From an uncultured Pseudomonadales bacterium (GTDB lineage Bacteria > Pseudomonadota > Gammaproteobacteria > Pseudomonadales > IMCC2047), in assembly GCA_947258415.1 (NCBI GenBank), contig CAMYIF010000005.1, positions 1 through 47,435 on the forward strand: a DNA stretch of 47,435 nt. Reading direction: 5' to 3'. The position numbers and the translations under genes are program-made. Each line of letters begins with the position of its first letter. Within the stretch, counting starts at the first letter, position 1. This document shows positions 24,410 to 35,914 of the stretch, one piece after another. Under the pieces are notes generated by a model. It did no database searches and was not told the DNA's origin. It worked only from the letters and a program-made list of their open reading frames with translations.

Positions 24410-24486
24410 GCGCCCGTAGCTCAGCTGGATAGAGTAGTGGCTTCCGAAGCCATTGGTCGCAGGTTCGAATCCTGCCGGGCGCGCCA
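24410..24486 (+). tRNA. tRNA-Arg (anticodon CCG)
   Basis: A 77-nt cloverleaf. Acceptor GCGCCCG/CGGGCGC, D-stem GCTC/GAGT, anticodon stem GTGGC/GCCAT with loop TTCCGAA (anticodon CCG at 24444-24446), T-stem GCAGG/CCTGC with loop TTCGAAT, discriminator G and an encoded CCA. It reads CGG codons. Confidence 0.95.
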
Positions 24487-24550: not shown

Positions 24551-24627
24551 GCCTCCGTAGCTCAGCTGGATAGAGTAACCGGCTTCGAACCGGTTGGTCG
24601 GGAGTTCGAATCTCTCCGGGGGCGCCA
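24551..24627 (+). tRNA. tRNA-Arg (anticodon UCG)
   Basis: A 77-nt cloverleaf, 64 bp after the first tRNA-Arg and probably co-transcribed. Acceptor GCCTCCG/CGGGGGC (one T-G pair), D-arm identical to its neighbour, anticodon stem ACCGG/CCGGT with loop CTTCGAA (anticodon TCG at 24585-24587), T-stem GGGAG/CTCTC (one G-T pair), discriminator G and encoded CCA. It would read CGA and perhaps CGG. UCG is not the usual gammaproteobacterial solution for CGA, which is read by inosine-modified ACG. Confidence 0.9.
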
Positions 24628-24693: not shown

Positions 24694-27600
24694 CTAGACT
24701 GTGTTCTTGTTAAAAACCAGGAATGATTTTTCAAATTCTTCCGCAGAAACAGGCTTGCCGAGATAATAACCCTGCATGTAGTTACATTTTTTCTCGGTTA
24801 AATATTCTTTCTGCAATTTGGTTTCAACACCTTCGGCAATGACTTTTACGCCCAGGCTATGCGCCAGGGTGATAATGGTGGTAACAATGTCGCCATCGAC
24901 TTTATCGCTGGTGATATTCGATACGAAGGCGCGGTCAATTTTCAACAGGTCGATGGGGAATTTTTTCAAATAATTCAGCGATGAATAACCCGTACCGAAA
25001 TCATCAATTGCCAGCATAACCCCCATATTTTTAAGCTGTTTAAGCGTTTCAATAACCTGTTCAGCGTTTTTCATAATGGTGCTTTCGGTAATCTCCAGCT
25101 CCAGGAAATGGGCAGGCAAACCGGTCTCATTGAGTATTTCTGCAACGTGAGTCGTTATATCACCTTTATCGAGCTGACGCCCGGCCAGGTTGACCGCTAT
25201 CCTGATCGGTGACTGACCCTTGTCCAGCCACTGCTTCAACTGCGCGCAGGCTTCTCTCATAACGAATTCACCCAATTCAAAAATCTGCCCCGTTTCTTCG
25301 GCCAGTGGTATGAACTCCATTGGGCTAACCAGGCCGCGCTCCGGATGTTGCCAACGCACCAGCGCCTCCATGCCGATCAACTCCCCGGTTTGAAGGTCTT
25401 CCTGTGGTTGGTAATAAACAACCATTTCATTTCGGGCAATGGCGCCGCGCAAATCAATTTCTATCCCCAGGCGACGCGCAACATCTGCTTCCATTTTTTG
25501 TTCATAAAACTCGTAACAATTTCCTTTTTCCTTGGCTCGGTACATAGCGATGTCGGCATTTTTTAGCAATACACCAATTTCTTCTCCGTCGTTCGGGTAT
25601 AACGAAATGCCGATACTGGTTTTTACGTGCATTTCCTTGCCCAGGAAAACGAACGGTCGCGACAGGGTATCGTGAATTTTTGAAGCAATTTTCTCTACGG
25701 CCGAGAATGACTTTATCCTGTTCAATACGATGGTGAATTCATCGCCGCCAAACCTTGAGACAATATCCCCTTGCCTGAGGCATCGTTGCAGGCGCTCGGC
25801 GACGACCTTGAGCAACAGGTCACCGGCATCATGACCGAAGGTGTCGTTCACCAGCTTGAAGCGATCCAGATCAAGAAACAGGATCGCAGCCATATTTTCT
25901 TCTGACATCTCTTCGAGAGTTTTCGTTAATTGCTCGGTAAACAGTGTCCGGTTTGGCAAACCGGTAAGGGTATCGTTATAGGCGAGCTTAAGCACATGTT
26001 TTTCAGCTCGACTGGCCTGCAGAATACGCGCGATACGTTTGCGAAGTACGGCAAAATTAACCGGTTTGGATATGTAATCGGTCGCCCCCGCCGCAAAGGC
26101 CCGACCAATGGATGTTTCATCGTTAAGGGAGGTAATGATCAGCACCGGGACATGCTTGCCGCCAGCCAGGGACTGAATTTCCGAACAGGCCTTGAAGCCA
26201 TCCATTTCAGGCATAATGGCATCCATGAGTACAAGTTCAGGCAAAAAGCGTTCACAGTAAGCCAGTGCCTGCTCTCCATTGTTTACATGGTCGACACGAT
26301 ATCCATCCTTTTCCAGCACTTTTCGCATGGCAAAACGCATGCCGCGATCATCGTCGACTATTAGTATTCTCTGCTGGCTATGATCCATGGCCGGGCTTTC
26401 GCTAATACCATAGAGCAGCTCATACGACTGATCCTGTTCGGCAGGATCTTTATCGGGACGGACTTTTCTTTCCAGTGCAAGCTGCAATAGTCCACACTCA
26501 GCGATAACCTTATCCATTAATTCTTCAACGCCCTGGTTATCACTCGCCCTGCTTTTAGCTTCGAGCTCGGCGCATACTTTGGTGAGGCGATGCGCACCGA
26601 AATTACCGGCAGCGCCCTTGATGCTGTGGGCAAAATCTCCGCTGGCCTGACTATCCTTAACCTTGACAGCATCTTTCAGTGAACGAATATAGGAAGGCAT
26701 ATCGTCAAGGAATACCTTGACCATTGTTGGCAGGGCAGCGCCAATTTGCTTGCGCAATTCATTGAAAACCTGCACGTCGATTACTTCATTGTCTACCTCT
26801 TTTACATCACAGACTGCGACCTCATTTTCCGAACTGATATTCCCGGTTTCGGCGCTAACAAATTCTTTAACTTCAAGCCACTTGCTCAGGGTAGCCCGCA
26901 GGCACTCAAGTTTTAAAGGTTTGGGCAAATAATCGTTCATTCCAACAGCAAGGCATTTTTTGCTTTCGCCTTTTTGAACATTCGCGGTCATGGCAACAAT
27001 CGGCACCCTGGAAGAATCGGTTTCAAGGCGCCTGATTTGCGAGGTCGCCTCATAACCATCCATTTCTGGCATATGGCAGTCCATGAGAATCAGGTTGAAT
27101 GTTTCCCTGGAAAGAATTTCCAGTGCTTCGCGTCCATTATTTACATAAGCCGATTTACACCCCAGTCGCTCCAGCATTCCGCTTGCGACTTGTTGATTGG
27201 CTCGATTATCTTCGACAATCAATATCTTGTTGCCGCCAAAAGTTTCTATTTTACTCGTATTCGCATTCCCTCCATCGACCCGAGTATCCTTATCTTCAAC
27301 AAATTCAAGTTTGCGATACAATGCATCGATTTTGTCGGCCAGGTCTTTAAACAACACCGGCTTGGACAGGAAGCCGGCAATATTTAAACGGTGCGTGTCT
27401 TCGTAGGTTGGATTAACCCTGTTGACCATCATCAGGACTTTAGTATTTGCAATCGAAGGCTCGTTAACAATCAGGTGCGCAAGGTCAGAGCCTTTCAGGC
27501 CGGGCATGACTTCGTCCATCAATACAAGGTTATAATTTTGATGATTTGCTGCCGACAATCGGAGTTTATCCAGGGCAACCGCACCATTCTCCGCGATATC

Positions 27601-29232
27601 GTAGGGAATTTTTAGTCGTTCCAGCATGCCGCCCAGGTAACGACGGTTGAGCGGGCTATCGTCGACTACAAGCACGCGCAACTTCTCCGGCTCGGATATC
27701 GTTTCGTGGCTGGGCACAGGCGCGTCAACCTGGACCGGAACCGGCAGGGTAAACCAGAATTCGCTGCCTTTACCCTGTTCGCTTTCAACGCCGATTTCAC
27801 CCCCCATAAAATGTATAATTTGCCTCGATATAGCCAACCCCAATCCCGTCCCGCCATACTTCCGCGTGGTAGAACCGTCTGCCTGGGAAAAAGCTTCAAA
27901 TATTTTTTCCCTGACTTGTTCCGTCATCCCTATACCTGTATCGGTAACCTTAAATAAAAGCTCGAGATGATCCTCGTGCTTCTGTTTCAGACTGACCTCG
28001 ATTCCCACTTCACCCCGATCGGTAAACTTAAGCGCATTGCCAACCAGGTTAATTAATACCTGGCGCAAGCGTCCAATGTCGCATTGCAAGTTGACGGGAA
28101 CCTCGCTGCCCAGGATATAAGCGATATCGATATCCTTACGTTGCGCCTGGGTACTAAGCAATAAGATAATATCCTCGAGCAGGGCATCCAGATCAAACGA
28201 CACATTTTCAGAATTAATTTTCCCCGAGTCGATCTTGGAGAAATCGAGAATATCGTCAATTAAAAGCAACAATGATTCTGCGGAATCACTGGCAATATCA
28301 ATATACTCGGTCTGCTTTTCGTTTAAGCCCATGTCTTCGAGCAACTCGAGCATACCCAGCACGCCGTTTAACGGAGTGCGCAATTCATGGCTTACATTTG
28401 CAGCGAATTCGCCTTTAACGCGCGCCGCCTCGAGCGCCAAATCCCGGGTTCCCCTGAGCTCCTCTTCGCGTGCGTCCAGCACGTTCATCATCTGGTTAAA
28501 CGCAATTTCCATTTCAATGACGTCGCGCGTACCCTTGATATCGGCCCGGATATCTTTTTCACCCTCTTTGGCGCGGCCCATGATGGTTGCCAAGTCCCTT
28601 ATCGGGTTAGTTATACGCGTGGTAATTGCTAAAAGTATAACAAGCAGCAATGCGGCAAGGGCCAGCGATACCAGCAGGTTGTAACGGAAAATATCTGCTT
28701 CCATACGATGTATGGATTCTTTGCCCAGCACAATTCGCACATAACCGACCAGTTCGGCCTGCGCCTCCTGGCCTAAAAAGGGTGAATCATCTTCAACCTG
28801 GGTACCGGTATAAACGGGCGAAACAAAATGCCAATGCTCGCTGTTTTCCGAGACAAGGCTCAATGAATCTGGCCAACTCGAATCTTGTTCCAGTTGGTTA
28901 ACTTTTTTGTCGGTTCCGTAGAGGAGTTTTTTCTCGTTATCGAAAATGCTTACTTCTACCAGGTCTGGAAAAGCAAGCATGGTGTCAGCTATGTACTTGG
29001 CTTCTGATTCGCTGAGGTAGAGCAGGGAAACGCGACTGCGTTCTGCAGTCGTTTTAGTCAGGTTTAAACCTTCCTGCAGCAATCGATCGCTAACCGAGCG
29101 AGTGGACAGCGTTGTCGTCACCATAGTAGTGATTAACGCAAGCAGTAAAATCCCGATGCTAAAGGTCCAAACCAGAAGCTTTCTGAATCCTACGCGATTA
29201 ATCCATTTATTTGGTAACGATTTCATGGTCAT
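24694..29232 (-). CDS. Hybrid sensor kinase with three receivers, HPt, GGDEF and EAL domains
   Basis: 1512 residues in a single frame. Order: TM1 about 19-42, a periplasmic sensor about 43-182, TM2 about 184-205, HAMP about 205-258, HisKA with His282 (SHELRTPLN), HATPase about 385-500 (N399, DTGIGM, GGTGLGLAI), receiver 1 (Asp573), receiver 2 (Asp718), HPt with His869 (AHSIKGAAGN), receiver 3 (Asp1004), GGDEF (1162-1166, RxxD site Arg1153-Asp1156) and EAL (1289-1291). All phospho-sites look intact. This is a BarA/TorS-like phosphorelay whose terminal receiver is fused to a cyclic-di-GMP synthase/hydrolase, so signal and output are one chain. Its start overlaps the stop of the binding-protein gene by 4 bp. 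No signal is known; the genetic link to a periplasmic binding protein and TonB receptor suggests a ligand sensed through that protein. Confidence 0.93.
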   Translation of the reverse strand: MTMKSLPNKWINRVGFRKLLVWTFSIGILLLALITTMVTTTLSTRSVSDRLLQEGLNLTKTTAERSRVSLLYLSESEAKYIADTMLAFPDLVEVSIFDNEKKLLYGTDKKVNQLEQDSSWPDSLSLVSENSEHWHFVSPVYTGTQVEDDSPFLGQEAQAELVGYVRIVLGKESIHRMEADIFRYNLLVSLALAALLLVILLAITTRITNPIRDLATIMGRAKEGEKDIRADIKGTRDVIEMEIAFNQMMNVLDAREEELRGTRDLALEAARVKGEFAANVSHELRTPLNGVLGMLELLEDMGLNEKQTEYIDIASDSAESLLLLIDDILDFSKIDSGKINSENVSFDLDALLEDIILLLSTQAQRKDIDIAYILGSEVPVNLQCDIGRLRQVLINLVGNALKFTDRGEVGIEVSLKQKHEDHLELLFKVTDTGIGMTEQVREKIFEAFSQADGSTTRKYGGTGLGLAISRQIIHFMGGEIGVESEQGKGSEFWFTLPVPVQVDAPVPSHETISEPEKLRVLVVDDSPLNRRYLGGMLERLKIPYDIAENGAVALDKLRLSAANHQNYNLVLMDEVMPGLKGSDLAHLIVNEPSIANTKVLMMVNRVNPTYEDTHRLNIAGFLSKPVLFKDLADKIDALYRKLEFVEDKDTRVDGGNANTSKIETFGGNKILIVEDNRANQQVASGMLERLGCKSAYVNNGREALEILSRETFNLILMDCHMPEMDGYEATSQIRRLETDSSRVPIVAMTANVQKGESKKCLAVGMNDYLPKPLKLECLRATLSKWLEVKEFVSAETGNISSENEVAVCDVKEVDNEVIDVQVFNELRKQIGAALPTMVKVFLDDMPSYIRSLKDAVKVKDSQASGDFAHSIKGAAGNFGAHRLTKVCAELEAKSRASDNQGVEELMDKVIAECGLLQLALERKVRPDKDPAEQDQSYELLYGISESPAMDHSQQRILIVDDDRGMRFAMRKVLEKDGYRVDHVNNGEQALAYCERFLPELVLMDAIMPEMDGFKACSEIQSLAGGKHVPVLIITSLNDETSIGRAFAAGATDYISKPVNFAVLRKRIARILQASRAEKHVLKLAYNDTLTGLPNRTLFTEQLTKTLEEMSEENMAAILFLDLDRFKLVNDTFGHDAGDLLLKVVAERLQRCLRQGDIVSRFGGDEFTIVLNRIKSFSAVEKIASKIHDTLSRPFVFLGKEMHVKTSIGISLYPNDGEEIGVLLKNADIAMYRAKEKGNCYEFYEQKMEADVARRLGIEIDLRGAIARNEMVVYYQPQEDLQTGELIGMEALVRWQHPERGLVSPMEFIPLAEETGQIFELGEFVMREACAQLKQWLDKGQSPIRIAVNLAGRQLDKGDITTHVAEILNETGLPAHFLELEITESTIMKNAEQVIETLKQLKNMGVMLAIDDFGTGYSSLNYLKKFPIDLLKIDRAFVSNITSDKVDGDIVTTIITLAHSLGVKVIAEGVETKLQKEYLTEKKCNYMQGYYLGKPVSAEEFEKSFLVFNKNTV

Positions 29233-30170
29233 CTATCAGGAAAAATCAAATTAAATTCCCGCATTTGGGAGCGGGTTATTTTTAACTTCAAATGCTCGGC
29301 CGTTCGCACGTTGACGGCAATTAATAGATTTTCCAATGCCTCGACTGTTTTACTTTCACCCCTGGCAACAAGTCCGGCCTTTTTTGACAGGCTTTTACCC
29401 ATCTGGATATTATCCGGGAACAGTGAAAATAATGCGCCACGCTTTACATGCGACGGGTTGCTCGAAAAAACAACCGTGTGCCGGTCCCATGCCTCACTCA
29501 TCAGCCTGGGTAACATGCCTTTTTCGTCCAGGGTTGGGTCCGCCTGTAATAGCCAGATTGCATCAGCCCCGCTTACCTGTTCACTCAGGAGTTTCTGGTA
29601 GGTTTTTGCAGCGTCTCGTGCACCATCGGCCGGCACAGTGACCAACTCCAGATCCAGTTCTTTTGCAGCCTTACTGGCCAATCTAACAAGCCAGCCGTTG
29701 CTTTCTTCGTGGTATACAACAGAAACACGACGAATATCAGGCACCAATTCCTTGAGCTTTGTAAACAGCATTTTCGGCGAAGGTGCCAATGATATCCCGA
29801 CTATTCCATGCTTAATATCCTTATCGGATAAAAGCGCTGCGCCTGTGACAACATTTAAACCGGTGGGTAACTGAGTTACAACAGATTTGACTCGGCTACC
29901 GAGAGAAATGACAACCTCGGGATTTGCTTTATTTAACCAGCTTTCCAGCTCTTCGATATCATCGCCTGCCCGAATTGCGTACATCCGGACCTTGCCATTT
30001 GCCTCGCGCGAAATACCCTTGATGATATCGCCAAAAATACTACGATAGGGCTCGCGCACATCAGGGTATAACACGGCCAGTGTTGGCCCCCTGGCGTTAG
30101 CGCTTAAAGACAATATCAAAGCCGCTATAATACATAACGTTTTGAATGTCAGCCCAATTTTATTCTTCAA
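29229..30170 (-). CDS. Periplasmic ABC_sub_bind-family binding protein
   Basis: 313 residues with a signal peptide (about 1-27, hydrophobic core ending SLSANARG). The rest is a two-lobed periplasmic binding fold of the PF04392-like type: LAVLYPDVREPYRSIF, VVISLGSRVKSVV, VVTGAALLS, VSVVYHEESNGWL, DAIWLLQADPTLD and VVFSSNPSHVKRGALFSLFPD. No permease or ATPase gene is nearby, so it is more likely a sensor ligand-presenting protein than part of an importer. It overlaps the TonB receptor stop and the kinase start by 4 bp each, implying translational coupling and near-equal production of the three proteins. The ligand is unknown. Confidence 0.85.
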   Translation of the reverse strand: MKNKIGLTFKTLCIIAALILSLSANARGPTLAVLYPDVREPYRSIFGDIIKGISREANGKVRMYAIRAGDDIEELESWLNKANPEVVISLGSRVKSVVTQLPTGLNVVTGAALLSDKDIKHGIVGISLAPSPKMLFTKLKELVPDIRRVSVVYHEESNGWLVRLASKAAKELDLELVTVPADGARDAAKTYQKLLSEQVSGADAIWLLQADPTLDEKGMLPRLMSEAWDRHTVVFSSNPSHVKRGALFSLFPDNIQMGKSLSKKAGLVARGESKTVEALENLLIAVNVRTAEHLKLKITRSQMREFNLIFPDR

Positions 30171-32290
30171 CCCCGTTCCCTTTTCCGTAACTCGGATAAA
30201 TTCTTTTTATTAGGTACACAAGAGCACTTTCTGACTTCGGCGAACACACTGCGTCCTGCCTGAGGTAAATCACCGGGTATAGCAACTGTTCCTGTGAGGG
30301 GGTCGTAGAGCGATGGCTCCAGCACCTTGTCATCGGTCAAATTGCGAATCGAAACAGCAACGCTGAGGCCATACGCCAGTTTTTTGCCCCTGAGGGTAAG
30401 GTCAATGGTCGTATAGTCATCAATATCACTACGCATATCACCTGAAGCACGTTTTCTGTCCATCACATGATTGAGCTGGGTATTGATCGACCAATAGTGC
30501 GATAACTCAATATTGGCCTGCAGGTAAATTTGATGTTGCGGTGCATTTGCCGCATCGGTATCGGTCTGTTCATCCTCCGATTTCTGATAGGCGTAGTTAC
30601 CTTTTATTTTCAGCCTGCGCATTGCATCCCAATCAAATTCAAGCTCAAGACCATGGCCAGTCTGGTTGCCGGAATTCTGGGCTACCGGCGTAAACCGGAT
30701 GATGTCCAGGAATTCGTAATAAAACAGGTTCATGCCAAACCGCAGGTCGCTGGTATGGTTGTAGTCAAATGCCAGTTCGTAGGTATCGATCCTTTCAGGG
30801 TCCAGGTTGGGATTACCGATGGCAATCGGGTTGGCCTGGTTAAACTGTTCGGCAAAGGAGGGCGCCCGAAATGCCGAACCGTATAAAAACTTGCTGGTCA
30901 GGTCGATGGTCGTATCCCAAACCAGCGCGAGACGTGGATTGGTCGTGGTACCAAAATCAGAATAATCATCAATTCTCAAACCGGCTGTCAGTGACCAGTC
31001 GCGGACAAAATCCCATTCGTCCTGAACAAAAACATACCTGACTGTTCGGTCCTCTTCCCGGTTAAAAATGGCCGCGCCACTGACGGGCATCACTGAACCC
31101 AGAAATGGCGGCGGGAACCCTGCACCAAAGTTTTTAGATTCTTCGATTCGGTATTGATCCAGCAGGTGATAGCCGGTGCCAATGCGAATCACATGATTTT
31201 CAAAACCGGTATAGAAGGTCGACAGGTCAAAACGGTAGTGCCGCTCGTAGTAGTCGGGGTTCCCGATAACCCCGTTAGGGAATGTGCCAAAGGCACCCGG
31301 AGGGTAGAGTTCCAGGTCCAGTTGCGTGGCCACATCATAAAAGCTGAAGCGGGTTTCCAGCTCCCAGTGTTCGTAGATTTCCGGATTTAGGTAAGTCACA
31401 TCCAGGTTGAACCGGTCGCTATTGCCTTCACCTTCGGTGTCCAGCGCTTGCGCTGCGCCACTACCGGTTTCAATATCTCGCCGTCCCTGGTAGCCCAGGC
31501 GAATACGCCAATACTCCTTGCTCAGGTCGATACGGGCATCGATGGATTCCCTGCCGGTATTGACACCACCAGGGGCCAGCGAGGCAGATGTTGCGAACAG
31601 GCCGTCAAAAGCAGTCTGGGCATCGGCGCCTATTTTTTCGTCATGACCTGAGGTATCGAGCAATTCCAGCGAAAATGCCACATCCCAACCTCTGACTTCA
31701 GTCCCGTAAAGGGCCCATGCTCGATGCTCATCGAAGCTGCCCGCCGAAATACCGGTTTCAACGCCATTAATTTCGTCGGCTGTTTTGGTGACAATATTGA
31801 TGGTACCGGCAAAGGCATCGGCGCCGTAGACGGCAGAACCCGGTCCGCGGATAACCTCAATCCTGGAAATATTTTCAACCGGCATCCCGCCCCAGGCTTC
31901 ACCCCTGTTGCCAAAAAGCAACTGGGTGGTTGGTATACCATTGATCAGCACAAGTACTTGCGGGTTAAATTCGGAATAGATTCCCCGGAAAGTAAAAATC
32001 GGCTCATAACCGGCGCCTTTCCTGGCGACATGAACGCCGGGCACCGATTCGAGTACTTCTGTTATGTCCCTGGCTCCCGTCTGCTGAATTTCTTCGGCCG
32101 TAATCAGCGTGGTAACCGCTGGCGCTTTTGAAATTAGTTGTTTTCTGCCAGTAGCGATGGAAACAAAATCCTCATCGCCGTACGAAAGTAATAAATCATT
32201 TCCTTCTACAACCTGATTTCCATATCCGTATTGGGAAAAACCGAGCAGGCAAATAATGCCACCCAAAAAGCACGGAATGTGATTTTTCAT
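30167..32290 (-). CDS. TonB-dependent outer-membrane receptor
   Basis: 707 residues. A signal peptide (about 1-24) is followed by a plug domain at about 50-170: PAVTTLITAEEIQQTGARDITEVLESVPGVHV-type sequence, VLVLINGIPTTQL, ISRIEVIRGPGSAVYGADAFAGTINIVTK. The beta-barrel covers the remainder, with LTAGLRIDDYSDFG, FRAPSFAEQFNQANP and NLDPERIDTYELAFDYN in the usual places. The last barrel strand (AGRSVFAEVRK) is followed by an unusual polar tail of about 20 residues containing two Cys instead of ending in an aromatic residue. The substrate is not deducible. A GAGGTGAGGG ribosome site precedes the ATG. It is first of a three-gene coupled set. Confidence 0.92.
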   Translation of the reverse strand: MKNHIPCFLGGIICLLGFSQYGYGNQVVEGNDLLLSYGDEDFVSIATGRKQLISKAPAVTTLITAEEIQQTGARDITEVLESVPGVHVARKGAGYEPIFTFRGIYSEFNPQVLVLINGIPTTQLLFGNRGEAWGGMPVENISRIEVIRGPGSAVYGADAFAGTINIVTKTADEINGVETGISAGSFDEHRAWALYGTEVRGWDVAFSLELLDTSGHDEKIGADAQTAFDGLFATSASLAPGGVNTGRESIDARIDLSKEYWRIRLGYQGRRDIETGSGAAQALDTEGEGNSDRFNLDVTYLNPEIYEHWELETRFSFYDVATQLDLELYPPGAFGTFPNGVIGNPDYYERHYRFDLSTFYTGFENHVIRIGTGYHLLDQYRIEESKNFGAGFPPPFLGSVMPVSGAAIFNREEDRTVRYVFVQDEWDFVRDWSLTAGLRIDDYSDFGTTTNPRLALVWDTTIDLTSKFLYGSAFRAPSFAEQFNQANPIAIGNPNLDPERIDTYELAFDYNHTSDLRFGMNLFYYEFLDIIRFTPVAQNSGNQTGHGLELEFDWDAMRRLKIKGNYAYQKSEDEQTDTDAANAPQHQIYLQANIELSHYWSINTQLNHVMDRKRASGDMRSDIDDYTTIDLTLRGKKLAYGLSVAVSIRNLTDDKVLEPSLYDPLTGTVAIPGDLPQAGRSVFAEVRKCSCVPNKKNLSELRKRERG

Positions 32291-32375: not shown

Positions 32376-33188
32376 CTAGTTTTCCCATTTCCTTTGAGGT
32401 TTTCCTTCGTATGAAATGCGCTTGCACCTGAGCGGGAAGAAGGTTCCGGCGGGTTTATCAACGGCATCGATGTAACAGGCCATCATGCCAGCAGAATATA
32501 TCACAGCGCCCATTCGATAAAACTCTTTAGCTGTCAGCCCCTGATCTGCATATAACGCTGATGCAAAACCAGCGATATTGAGTTTCGTTCTATAGCGCAT
32601 TTTGATAAGTATTTTTTCTATTTCAAAGGCGAGCTTTACATGCGGGCCGTCGGAAGCACCCAACTCTTCCGCCAACCTTAATGCAACAGGAACCCTTTCA
32701 TCATTATTGGTTATTGGCCGACCAAAACCATAGGGCACGTTTTTACTAGCATCTATTTCATGCTTAACGACATCTACCAGTTCCTTGCCTTCGTCCACTA
32801 CTAATGTTTTAACCCGTGTAATAAAGTCCGCAGCAGCAAAACTTGCTTGCCCTCCGAAAAATTTGCTTTCAGATATCGCGGTTCCACAGGCTATTGCTAA
32901 CATACCCGTTGTTTTGGCAGATCCCGATATTGCCGCAACCCGATTGTTCCAGATTCTCGGTTCGGGGAAGCTGGTGCAAATGGCCCAGGTTCGGCTAAAA
33001 AGCTCGATTTGTTTTTTGCTAAGAAACTTGCCGGTGATGCTAAAAAACCAGATTTCAACCCAGTCTTTATCAAAAAATTCGGTAAACACATCCAGGCCCC
33101 TGAACACCACCCGTTCGCCCGCAAACCAGGCACCCATATCGGTTTCCCAGTTGTCTTCTCTCTCGATTAAAGTATCCGGTCCTTTCAT
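32376..33188 (-). CDS. Citrate-synthase-fold protein lacking the catalytic triad (B subunit)
   Basis: 270 residues resembling the citrate synthase/citryl-CoA lyase superfamily, shorter than a full citrate synthase. Matches to family motifs are recognisable but altered. LHG(G/L)A is FFGGQASF (His to Phe). GFGHRVY is GFGRPITNNDER (His to Arg). NVD is NIAGF (Asp to Ala). The C-terminal FPLRCKRISYEGKPQRKW keeps the typical Tyr-x-Gly ending. Standard Claisen condensation or citryl-CoA cleavage is therefore doubtful. It overlaps the preceding homologue by 4 bp, so the two probably form a heteromer. Other readings are a regulatory subunit or a CoA-ester enzyme with new chemistry. Confidence 0.7.
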   Translation of the reverse strand: MKGPDTLIEREDNWETDMGAWFAGERVVFRGLDVFTEFFDKDWVEIWFFSITGKFLSKKQIELFSRTWAICTSFPEPRIWNNRVAAISGSAKTTGMLAIACGTAISESKFFGGQASFAAADFITRVKTLVVDEGKELVDVVKHEIDASKNVPYGFGRPITNNDERVPVALRLAEELGASDGPHVKLAFEIEKILIKMRYRTKLNIAGFASALYADQGLTAKEFYRMGAVIYSAGMMACYIDAVDKPAGTFFPLRCKRISYEGKPQRKWEN

Positions 33189-34036
33189 TTGTTTATCTTT
33201 TCGAGATTATCTTTAACAGGTCCGGGATCGTTGGAAAGCTTTAACCCATCGGCAAAAAACGGGTATTTAGCCAGGCCATTATGCCTTTGTTCAAGCGCAT
33301 GCGCGCCTGCGCCGGGTAGTCGCAGAATCATAAACAGCATTTCAGCCTGCTCGTCCGTGAAGCCCAAATCGATAAAAGCAGCTGCGATTACTCCTACCAT
33401 AGCCAAGGGATTTCCGCTAAAGCCTTCAACGGATTCCCTGTTTTGTTTTAACCACTGCAATTGGCCTGCTTCCCCGATCTCGATCGACGACAGGTAATCC
33501 AGGGTTTGCTTAACGGGTGTTGAACAACTGCTACCGTAAGGATCAAAACCCGGGATATGCTCGATGTCCGGCCACGCTTTTACATCATCCTGTTTTTCAT
33601 AATTAGTCAGTTTATCCTGCCAAATTGCCAAATCCTTTCCACAGGTATTAATTAACCTGATGGCCAAAAACATTTCCCGGGCACCACCATATTGCCCGGA
33701 ACCGGGCCCAAGTGCGCCAATCAGGCAAGATGCAGCAATAGACCCACCTGCACCCCCGCTCATGGCAGCCCTGACACTTAGGTCGCGAGGCCCGGGATTT
33801 GCCAATGCTACGGCGACTCCTTCCAGAAGCTTTGTTTGAGTTTTTGAGGGTGGCTCAAGTTTGAAGAGAAGGTACAGATACTCGACCCAGCTGACTTTTC
33901 CCAGCAGGTCGCCGTAGACGTCAAAACCCGAGCAATAGCAGGCTTGTGCAGCGAAGGGATTATCGGGTTCGGGGATTTCTTGCCAGATTTTACTGTGAAT
34001 GACATCTTTTTGCCTAGGCTTGCCCGCGTCCGTCAT
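33185..34036 (-). CDS. Citrate-synthase-fold protein lacking the catalytic triad (A subunit)
   Basis: 283 residues, paralogous in fold to the next gene. Family landmarks: SCLIGALGPGSGQYGGAREM (LHGGA position, His to Tyr), IPGFDPYGSSC (GFGH position, His to Pro), EGFSGNPLAMVGVIAAAF (NVD region, no matching Asp seen) and MILRLPGAGAHALEQR, close to the RxxGxxAHxxEQ helix of citryl-CoA lyases. As with its partner the three catalytic positions are changed. It begins 6 bp after the ThDP enzyme stop and overlaps the B subunit by 4 bp, arguing for a three-protein functional unit. Superfamily call firm, function unknown. Confidence 0.72.
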   Translation of the reverse strand: MTDAGKPRQKDVIHSKIWQEIPEPDNPFAAQACYCSGFDVYGDLLGKVSWVEYLYLLFKLEPPSKTQTKLLEGVAVALANPGPRDLSVRAAMSGGAGGSIAASCLIGALGPGSGQYGGAREMFLAIRLINTCGKDLAIWQDKLTNYEKQDDVKAWPDIEHIPGFDPYGSSCSTPVKQTLDYLSSIEIGEAGQLQWLKQNRESVEGFSGNPLAMVGVIAAAFIDLGFTDEQAEMLFMILRLPGAGAHALEQRHNGLAKYPFFADGLKLSNDPGPVKDNLEKINK

Positions 34037-34042
34037 CGCGTT

Positions 34043-35914
34043 TTATTTCAATCCATTTATGCGGGTAGCCAAGGGTGGCACTTCGTCAGCATCGATAACG
34101 ACATCAATAACGGTTGGTCCATTGCGTTTCAATATCGCCTCGATGTTCAGTTCGTGTAGTTCATCAGGCTTGGTAATCTGGTAACCTGGAATGCCCATGG
34201 ATTCTGCCAGTTTTGCGTAATTAGCAGCGGGCAATTGATGGCCGATGCTTGCAGATTTATTCATGATTTGTCCATGCTTGACCATACCCAGTGACGAGTC
34301 ATTCATAATCAGGAAGGTCACTTTCAGGTTATTTTGTAAGGCCACGGTGATTTCATTGCCGTACATCAGGAAGCCGCCGTCACCAATGATGCAAACTATG
34401 TGTTCATCCGGATTTGCCAACGACGCGCCAATGGCACTACCCACCGACCATCCCATCGAGCAGAAATCTGTGCACACCTGGAACAGCCCGCCATGTTGAT
34501 GCCGCCGACCGTCTTCATACCAGCGATCAAGTGATCGACGCTGACCCAACCGCCGGTCGAAAGGGTTCAGGTAATGTATTGCCCAGGCAAGGTTGTTACC
34601 TGCGTCTGCAAAGTATTTTGTATGAGCAGGGAAGATTTTCGTCAACTGGTGCATCAGCCACTGGGGTTTGATCGGCACCGAGTCATCAAAGATTTTTCGA
34701 GGCTCATCCAGGGTAAAATGCATGATATCATCGTATTTGGAATCATCTTTTTTGGCATTTTCCAGCCGTTCGCTTAATTCAATACCACTTTGAAGGCTGG
34801 TGTTTTGGGTAATGCCCTGGATAATCAGTTCATCCAGCACCTTGCTGAAAATGGAGAGAATATTTCCCCTGACATGCAGTTTTGCCATCGGTGTGCGAAT
34901 AAGGTTTGCCTCATCCGCTTCCACGTGGATAAGCCGATCATTCAGCAGTGTGTCTGCATCCCAGGCATTGCTGTTGAATTCGCCCAAAGAGGTTCCCACG
35001 GCGACCACGGTTTCAACTTCGGGATCGGCAAGCGCTTCATTGGCGCTTTTATGTCCGGCGAAACCAATCACACCCTTAAACTGCGGGTGGTAAGGGCTGA
35101 TAAAGCTTTTAGCATCGGGCATGGCGACAACCGACGAGCCCAGCAGACAAGCAATATCTATAATTAAACTTGCCGCGTCCCTGGTGCCGACGCCAAGAAC
35201 AAATACAACCTTTTTACCCTTCGACAACTGTTTGCAGAGCTCTGTTACAGCCTCTTTATCCTGCATTAACGGTCGCTTAACGGCTTTGTTTAAATCATAG
35301 GACGGCCCGTGTTGAGGCAAGCTTGCCTTTAAAATATCAGAAGGGATACTTAAATGCACTGGACCGTAGGGTGGGCGCAGGGCTGTCATAATGGCCGAAA
35401 TTAATTTGTTTTCAAGCTGGCCGATATGACTGACGAAGGAATTATAGAGTGTACAAAATTGATACATACCGACCACATTGACGCCGGTATCGCCTGACTC
35501 CTGCAAGGCTTTACGGCCAAACTTATCATGGACAGTTTGTGGCGTAATCACCAAGAGGGGAACGTTGTTCTCGTAAGCCGAAGCAACGCCGGTAAGCATG
35601 TTGGTTGCCCCCGGGCCTGTGGTTGAGCAACATACACCCAGATGGCCCGAGTTTTTTGCATAGCCACTAGCCATGAATGCAGCGCCGGTTTCGTGCCGGG
35701 CGATGATTGAGCGAATGCCATTGCTTGCTTCGCTTCGGGCCAGGGCATTGTAAAGCGCTTCTATTGCGCCACCCGGTATGCCAAACACATACTCGACATC
35801 GATTTGCTCAAGGTATTGGAGGATCAGGTCAGCGACGCGGACTTCCAGTTCGACACTTGACACGCTCGGGTCATCAAGAGACTTTTTGGCCAGGCCAAGC
35901 GCGTTTATACCCAT
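34043..35914 (-). CDS. Thiamin-diphosphate-dependent enzyme, acetolactate-synthase-like
   Basis: 623 residues with the three-domain layout of the acetohydroxyacid synthase/oxalyl-CoA decarboxylase family. The N-terminal pyrimidine-binding domain has VFGIPGGAIEALYNAL and the activating Glu75 (RHETGAAFMASGYAK). The C-terminal domain has the ThDP/Mg motif GDGG...N from 511 with Asn538. It carries out decarboxylation and/or carboligation of a 2-oxo acid or a 2-hydroxyacyl group; the substrate is not apparent. No small regulatory subunit (ilvN) is adjacent, which argues against ordinary valine synthesis. It leads an operon with two citrate-synthase-fold proteins, suggesting C-C bond chemistry on a CoA ester. 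Confidence 0.85.
   Translation of the reverse strand: MGINALGLAKKSLDDPSVSSVELEVRVADLILQYLEQIDVEYVFGIPGGAIEALYNALARSEASNGIRSIIARHETGAAFMASGYAKNSGHLGVCCSTTGPGATNMLTGVASAYENNVPLLVITPQTVHDKFGRKALQESGDTGVNVVGMYQFCTLYNSFVSHIGQLENKLISAIMTALRPPYGPVHLSIPSDILKASLPQHGPSYDLNKAVKRPLMQDKEAVTELCKQLSKGKKVVFVLGVGTRDAASLIIDIACLLGSSVVAMPDAKSFISPYHPQFKGVIGFAGHKSANEALADPEVETVVAVGTSLGEFNSNAWDADTLLNDRLIHVEADEANLIRTPMAKLHVRGNILSIFSKVLDELIIQGITQNTSLQSGIELSERLENAKKDDSKYDDIMHFTLDEPRKIFDDSVPIKPQWLMHQLTKIFPAHTKYFADAGNNLAWAIHYLNPFDRRLGQRRSLDRWYEDGRRHQHGGLFQVCTDFCSMGWSVGSAIGASLANPDEHIVCIIGDGGFLMYGNEITVALQNNLKVTFLIMNDSSLGMVKHGQIMNKSASIGHQLPAANYAKLAESMGIPGYQITKPDELHELNIEAILKRNGPTVIDVVIDADEVPPLATRINGLK

Follow-up and report, generated by a model that had tools for sequence, protein, structure and literature searches.

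A six-gene operon joining a thiamine diphosphate enzyme to two citrate-synthase-fold proteins without the catalytic residues: a candidate make-and-sense signalling unit

Background

Passages of PMC12395478 describe an enzyme that comes after CybE and fuses the CybE product with an acyl-coenzyme A (acyl-CoA), and they term CsmA and 'BpmA' CybE homologues. Passages of PMC8777810 describe CybF, the partner of CybE, as 3-oxoacyl-ACP (acyl carrier protein) synthase-like, and CybF was for this reason rejected as a precedent with a citrate synthase fold. In Vibrio parahaemolyticus, a signal enzyme, a periplasmic binding protein and a membrane GGDEF-EAL protein are placed in one operon, ScrABC, in passages of PMC11315295 and PMC9303241. 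The present analysis concerns a six-gene unit of an uncultured Pseudomonadales bacterium of the lineage IMCC2047 (GenBank assembly GCA_947258415.1, contig CAMYIF010000005.1, positions 1 to 47,435; this stretch of 47,435 nucleotides (nt) is the window). It encodes a thiamine diphosphate (ThDP)-dependent enzyme, two citrate-synthase-fold (CS) proteins named CSa and CSb, a TonB-dependent receptor, a periplasmic binding protein and a membrane sensor. Searches of the open-access PMC literature turned up nothing recognised as this operon. The chance that the unit is a self-contained make-and-sense signalling operon is put here at about even.

Layout of the operon

The genes are given in the order of transcription.

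34043-35914, minus strand: ThDP-dependent enzyme, 623 amino acids (aa)
33185-34036, minus strand: CSa, predicted citryl-CoA-lyase fold, catalytic residues lost, 283 aa
32376-33188, minus strand: CSb, predicted citryl-CoA-lyase fold, catalytic residues lost, 270 aa, Arg157 and Arg165 invariant
30167-32290, minus strand: TonB-dependent outer-membrane receptor with plug and barrel domains, 707 aa
29229-30170, minus strand: periplasmic binding protein, PF04392 (ABC_sub_bind), E 6.7e-10
24694-29232, minus strand: sensor with HisKA, HATPase, three receiver, Hpt, GGDEF and EAL domains, 1512 aa

The ThDP stop and the CSa start are 6 nt apart, CSa and CSb share 4 nt (ATGA), 85 nt lie between CSb and the receptor gene, and the receptor/binding protein and binding protein/sensor gene pairs overlap by 4 nt each. 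A terminator scan placed no site within the 85 nt before the receptor gene, although the scan itself yielded no more sites than chance, and promoters and terminators showed no excess over shuffled sequence. The preliminary description of this DNA had placed the CS pair directly behind an acetolactate-synthase-like ThDP enzyme lacking an ilvN partner; the open reading frames (ORFs) confirmed this, and no ilvN-like partner was apparent near the ThDP gene in the ORF and domain listings. The receptor, binding protein and sensor genes had been missed, and with them signalling becomes a likelier purpose than metabolism. In the same listings no inner-membrane transporter or ABC permease gene was found in the window operon, and a receptor with a binding protein but no permease was counted in favour of signalling.

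A TonB receptor adjoining biosynthesis genes, with scores against hemin/siderophore receptor models that stay under the cut-off, would also be expected if the ThDP-CSa-CSb trio made a hydroxy-carboxylate siderophore as metal chelator which the receptor then recovered. However, this is very unlikely, as the listings showed neither siderophore export nor ferric-siderophore importer genes in the window operon, a large histidine kinase/cyclic di-GMP (c-di-GMP) sensor would be unnecessary for siderophore recovery, and other loci have sensors but no receptor in the stretch seen. A role of the trio in anti-phage defence was considered and rejected, because PADLOC anti-phage models gave no match for CSa, CSb, the ThDP enzyme or the binding protein; four sensor matches were all on receiver and kinase parts. 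Finally, a search for a TPP riboswitch or other RNA produced only two tRNA genes downstream of the operon, on the plus strand just past its last gene (24410-24483 and 24551-24624).

The ThDP enzyme

Three TPP_enzyme domains were identified in the ThDP enzyme, and its closest solved structures were BbmA (8x3x, E 3.5e-78) and CsmA (8x3z). The motifs His74-Glu75, Gly-Asp-Gly 511-513 and Asn538 were invariant in 31/31. The score against the acetohydroxyacid synthase equivalog was 277.3 bits, which does not reach the cut-off of 538.35. Judged by sequence, the enzyme is related to CybE/CsmA/BbmA-type carboligases and to acetolactate synthase, with its ThDP motifs intact. Two acetolactate-synthase-like proteins of the same genome fell outside the CS-linked clade of the ThDP tree, which carried long-branch warnings for L142 (the KAS-III row), L019 and the outgroups (loci are numbered L, genomes G).

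Fold and lost catalytic residues of CSa and CSb

With the Pfam model Citrate_synt, CSb scored 32.1 bits against a cut-off of 27 while CSa scored 17 bits, under the cut-off; both proteins matched NCBIfam citryl-CoA lyase models far under cut-off. AlphaFold2 single-chain models had a predicted local distance difference test (pLDDT) score of 91.1 for CSa and 90.2 for CSb. The CSa model aligned to ATP-citrate lyase 6hxj with a Z of 19.9 and to citryl-CoA lyase 6hxp with 19.7, and the CSb model to 6hxp with 22.7. On these models, both proteins are predicted to carry the citryl-CoA lyase fold, citryl-CoA lyases being their best structural match.

The catalytic positions were mapped through a profile alignment to the lone lyase of L025 and a joint alignment with the lone lyases of L025, L171 and L172, in which the residues are intact. 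In the window, the first His of CSa is replaced by Tyr116 and the second by Pro166 (GFDP replacing GFGH), and the Asp is absent. In CSb, the first His is replaced by Phe111 or a gap, depending on the alignment by one residue, the second by Arg157 and the Asp by Ala206. These replacements agree with those named in the preliminary description. The codons concerned, with counts among relatives, are as follows.

33689-33691, minus strand: CSa Tyr116, first-His place; His in 0/63 close relatives and 7/15 distant rows
33539-33541, minus strand: CSa Pro166, second-His place; Pro in 63/63 close relatives, His in 1/15 distant rows
32718-32720, minus strand: CSb Arg157, second-His place; Arg in 71/71 close relatives and 19/19 wider rows
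32571-32573, minus strand: CSb Ala206, catalytic-Asp place; Asp in 0/71 close relatives and 0/19 wider rows

Close relatives comprised 63 CSa (5 of 68 cluster members dropped for length) and 71 CSb sequences (10 of 81 dropped), and a wider, more distant set including the window row comprised 15 CSa and 19 CSb rows. The catalytic His/His/Asp was gone from all 63 and all 71 close relatives. Among the distant CSa rows, seven kept the first His, one the second and none the Asp, with other residues at the Pro166 place in divergent types; neither His nor Asp was present in any of the 19 CSb rows. Thus, the CSa residues were seemingly lost in steps while CSb was uniformly changed. CSb retains Asp163-Glu164-Arg165 and Asn204, and Arg239 of CSa is kept in the close group only. 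The median ratio of nonsynonymous to synonymous substitution rates (dN/dS) was 0.123 for CSa (33 of 58 pairs usable) and 0.130 for CSb (24 of 32 pairs usable). Uniformity among close relatives together with dN/dS of 0.12-0.13 argues against loss by chance or decay, which bears out the earlier view of two well-formed, non-decaying genes; both are under purifying selection and appear from their sequences to be working proteins and not relics.

CSa and CSb could be pseudoenzymes that carry out no chemistry and instead serve the ThDP enzyme as a scaffold or as an allosteric partner, like the regulatory subunits of acetolactate synthase, and the loss of all three canonical catalytic residues in close relatives, the near-obligate pairing of the two proteins (see below) and a 4-nt ATGA/GTGA overlap of their genes, possible in 38/67, all suit this explanation. 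It is nevertheless quite unlikely, because many other polar residues are invariant, more as in a rebuilt active site, and because other loci have a methyltransferase or a KAS-III-like enzyme where the CS pair would stand, which suggests an enzymatic slot. Among close relatives, the invariant polar residues of CSa were Glu20, Arg84, Trp139, Trp155, Glu249 and Gln250, and the invariant residues of CSb were Arg78, Asn82, Arg83, Arg157, Asp163, Glu164, Arg165 and Asp215. Candidate CSa-CSb fusions were rejected, as the long ORFs proved to hold one CS domain and an unrelated frame.

In L025 (8430-10429) and L172 (5949-8008), a citryl-CoA lyase-like gene that stands alone and keeps the His/His/Asp lies beside what we take to be CoA-transferase-like and tripartite-transporter-like genes; this is a separate setting and probably a catabolic one. 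In the assembly that holds the window (completeness 95.83%), gltA was not found by PF00285. A role of CSa/CSb as replacement of citrate synthase was rejected since G002, G013 and G020, which have the trio or the CS pair, hold full citrate synthases; G004 gave a partial match. The missing gltA is therefore probably an assembly gap.

Recurrence of the operon

A scan across 84,980 species produced 360 relatives of CSb, of which the best 80 were used as loci. These 80 were mostly from gamma- and betaproteobacteria, with additional Desulfuromonadia and Fibrobacteres records; named or numbered isolates bearing CSb included Shewanella salipaludis (L068), Sulfuricella sp. T08, Pelotalea chapellei and Geobacter sp. 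OR-1. Neighbours were tallied by tblastn, many of the 80 loci being on short contigs, and homologues near CSb were found for CSa in 79 loci, ThDP enzyme in 71, TonB receptor in 70, sensor in 63 (a tally that can take in unrelated two-component proteins) and binding protein in 56. CSa adjoined CSb in 79 of the 80 loci, the exception, L086, ending at a contig edge. Of the 48 well-flanked loci (>3.5 kb upstream, >8.5 kb downstream), all had both CSa and the ThDP enzyme, 47 had the TonB receptor, 46 the sensor and 43 the binding protein. All six genes were present in 43 of these 48, the exceptions being L067, L071, L078, L082 and L104; ORF comparison showed that the binding-protein gene is present in L067 and L104 despite the tblastn miss. 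The usual gene order was ThDP-CSa-CSb-TonB-binding protein-sensor, and the flanks were mostly unrelated between loci.

A class sample of 274 genomes was drawn separately, with a ThDP cut-off of 1e-120 or 1e-150 picked to part the ThDP clade from ordinary acetolactate synthases. CSb was found in 32 genomes, the ThDP enzyme in 37 and the binding protein in 37. The ThDP enzyme occurred in 29 of the 32 CSb genomes against 4.3 expected (hypergeometric p ~1e-28, a value that ignores kinship) and the binding protein in 28. Among the 31 CSb loci besides the window, CSa was adjacent in 27; L141 reached a contig edge, L134 had CSa on another contig, L132 was without a clear CSa, and L129 held part of a CSb split over two sites of one genome, the other part lying near ThDP and CSa. 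L129 and L157, in the single-contig genome G190, are the two distant places of this split CSb, a broken operon. CSa was also sought in 11 CSb-less genomes and found in none. Overall, the two CS proteins are almost never found apart. In a phylum sample of 398 genomes, the ten genomes with strong CSb matches were identical to the ten with strong ThDP matches; three more weak CSb matches were lone lyase-like genes or ambiguous. Distance correlations among five operon proteins were 0.56-0.83 (38 loci), not corrected for kinship, and were given no weight.

The trio was thus found to be conserved as a unit. The earlier proposal that the three genes encode one heteromeric enzyme held in part: the near-obligate pair and the conserved trio favour it, but the ThDP enzyme occurred without CSb in 8 of the 37 ThDP-positive class genomes, so the trio is not strictly one enzyme. 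At least two of these eight have the ThDP gene at a contig edge (L143, L152). ThDP and binding protein without CSb were found in six class genomes.

Exchange of parts between loci

In L142, the sensor, binding protein and TonB genes stood with a KAS-III-like enzyme (PF08545/PF08541) and ThDP, the CS pair being replaced; L147 had the same type of arrangement with a methyltransferase in the place of KAS-III. ThDP enzymes of swapped loci nested inside the CS-linked clade (support 99/99). In L145, L148 and L160, ThDP relatives were seen beside FIST-like proteins and kinases with the CS pair not nearby; in L145 and L148 the ThDP gene adjoins a histidine kinase and the FIST protein (Pfam domains tested in L145). 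This neighbourhood is perhaps a second sensing arrangement. L166-L169 carried ThDP-CSa-CSb with a long Ser/Thr-kinase/AAA/GAF/histidine-kinase protein (domains tested in L167) and, in three of the four loci, a LuxR-type response regulator; no TonB receptor or binding protein was found in the stretch seen. In the ORF listing of L167, a reverse frame that overlaps ThDP and CSa took their place; ThDP was detected there by the phylum search. The order in L162-L165 was TonB-CSa-CSb-ThDP-binding protein-sensor, and in L133 a YfiR-like DUF4154 protein and a CHASE8-PAS-GGDEF-EAL protein replaced the binding protein and sensor. An SDR cluster was present in six loci, and other tailoring genes were a sulfotransferase (L022), a carbamoyltransferase (L018) and an asparagine-synthase-like gene (L137).

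The constant core is the ThDP enzyme and some way of sensing; the processing enzyme, decorations and receptor vary. A family of signals with private dialects would be expected to show such a fixed core with varying parts, and a synthase found with sensors of several kinds is in keeping with a signal maker.

A proposed signalling circuit

Gene content, gene order, recurrence, residue loss, fold, intact ThDP motifs and part swapping are observed, and from them we infer the biochemical steps and the signalling role of the operon. The ThDP enzyme would form an acid of the acyloin type from two 2-oxo acids, in the manner of CybE/CsmA/BbmA. A CSa-CSb heteromer, having given up the acid-base residues of citrate synthase, would process this product, most likely binding it with an acyl-CoA so that it is acylated or extended. 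The set of tailoring enzymes, among them a reductase, a sulfotransferase and a carbamoyltransferase, differs by locus, and the product would leave the cell. The TonB receptor may import it to the periplasm, where the PF04392 protein would bind it, and the complex may switch the membrane sensor to a changed phosphorelay and c-di-GMP output. The further proposal, that a ThDP carboligase with a rebuilt heteromeric citryl-CoA-lyase pair forms a new class of signal synthase which makes a family of private signals and whose partner enzyme, tailoring enzymes and receptor are exchanged cassette-like from lineage to lineage, is tentative and falls a little short of an even chance.

Several observations weigh against signalling. 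No exporter gene is present in the six-gene unit. The KAS-III and methyltransferase variants occur in one genome each, and no second case was found when they were sought in their families (1 and 4 genomes). The trio stands without a receptor within the stretch seen in L078 and L121, and the binding protein occurs without CSb in nine class genomes; sensor and synthase can thus occur apart. In addition, 2-oxoglutarate-dehydrogenase-like genes adjoin the ThDP gene in six loci, which could point to metabolism: they lie ~350 nt upstream in L026, L028, L033, L047 and L061, which form one group (Cycloclasticus and kin), and downstream in reversed order in L149. By length and start we take them to be sucA, sucB and lpd, and the substrate may accordingly be 2-oxoglutarate or succinyl-CoA.

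These sucAB-lpd-like neighbours and the SDR cluster also suit a catabolic operon, in which a compound from the environment is captured by the receptor and binding protein, reported by the sensor and then cleaved or converted by the ThDP enzyme and CS pair. Lyases are known among both folds, and uptake commonly relies on TonB receptors and binding proteins. A catabolic role is still unlikely given that the window operon is without an inner-membrane transporter, that the classic lyase residues are lost from CSa and CSb, and that in L166-L169 the trio accompanies the Ser/Thr-kinase/histidine-kinase sensor with neither a TonB receptor nor a binding protein within the stretch seen.

If the signalling reading is true, about one in ten of the sampled class species would carry a make-and-sense circuit. 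It would represent a new route to bacterial signals in which ThDP chemistry is joined to that of the citrate synthase fold, with a direct tie to control by c-di-GMP and phosphorelay, in gamma- and betaproteobacteria with outliers elsewhere. Even should that reading fail, the CSa-CSb pair offers a testable example of a remodelled active site.

Comparison with known systems

The ThDP enzyme shares domain layout and motifs with the acetohydroxyacid synthase large subunit (IlvB/IlvI) and differs by its sub-cut-off score, the lack of an apparent ilvN and its separate tree position. CSa and CSb share length and fold nearly end to end with citryl-CoA lyase/citrate synthase (6hxp, and the CCL module of ATP-citrate lyase), and the GFG/GYG turn and, in CSb, Asn204 and Arg165 are retained. 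They differ by the lost His/His/Asp and in being two unlike proteins that are nearly always together.

Among the CybE/CsmA/BbmA alpha-hydroxy-beta-keto acid synthases of the furanolide pathway are BbmA and CsmA, the proteins of solved structure to which the ThDP enzyme is most closely related. The partner CybF, as described in the passages cited above, is not of the CS fold, and only L142 among the operon loci has a KAS-III-like gene; by analogy, CSa-CSb could be a second, unrelated solution to the type of step taken by the CybE partner. A receptor or sensor is not mentioned in those passages, whereas the operon here has both.

ScrABC, as far as its cited passages describe it, serves as the model of how the operon would work, and LuxPQ offers a second parallel. 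ScrABC differs in that a TonB receptor is not named in those passages, in that the operon's sensor has a hybrid histidine kinase besides, and in that the signal enzyme ScrA is a PLP (pyridoxal phosphate) aminotransferase, which the operon lacks. Like ScrABC, the present operon has a binding protein and a GGDEF-EAL sensor, with the ThDP enzyme and CS pair, a putative signal maker, in the slot of the signal enzyme.

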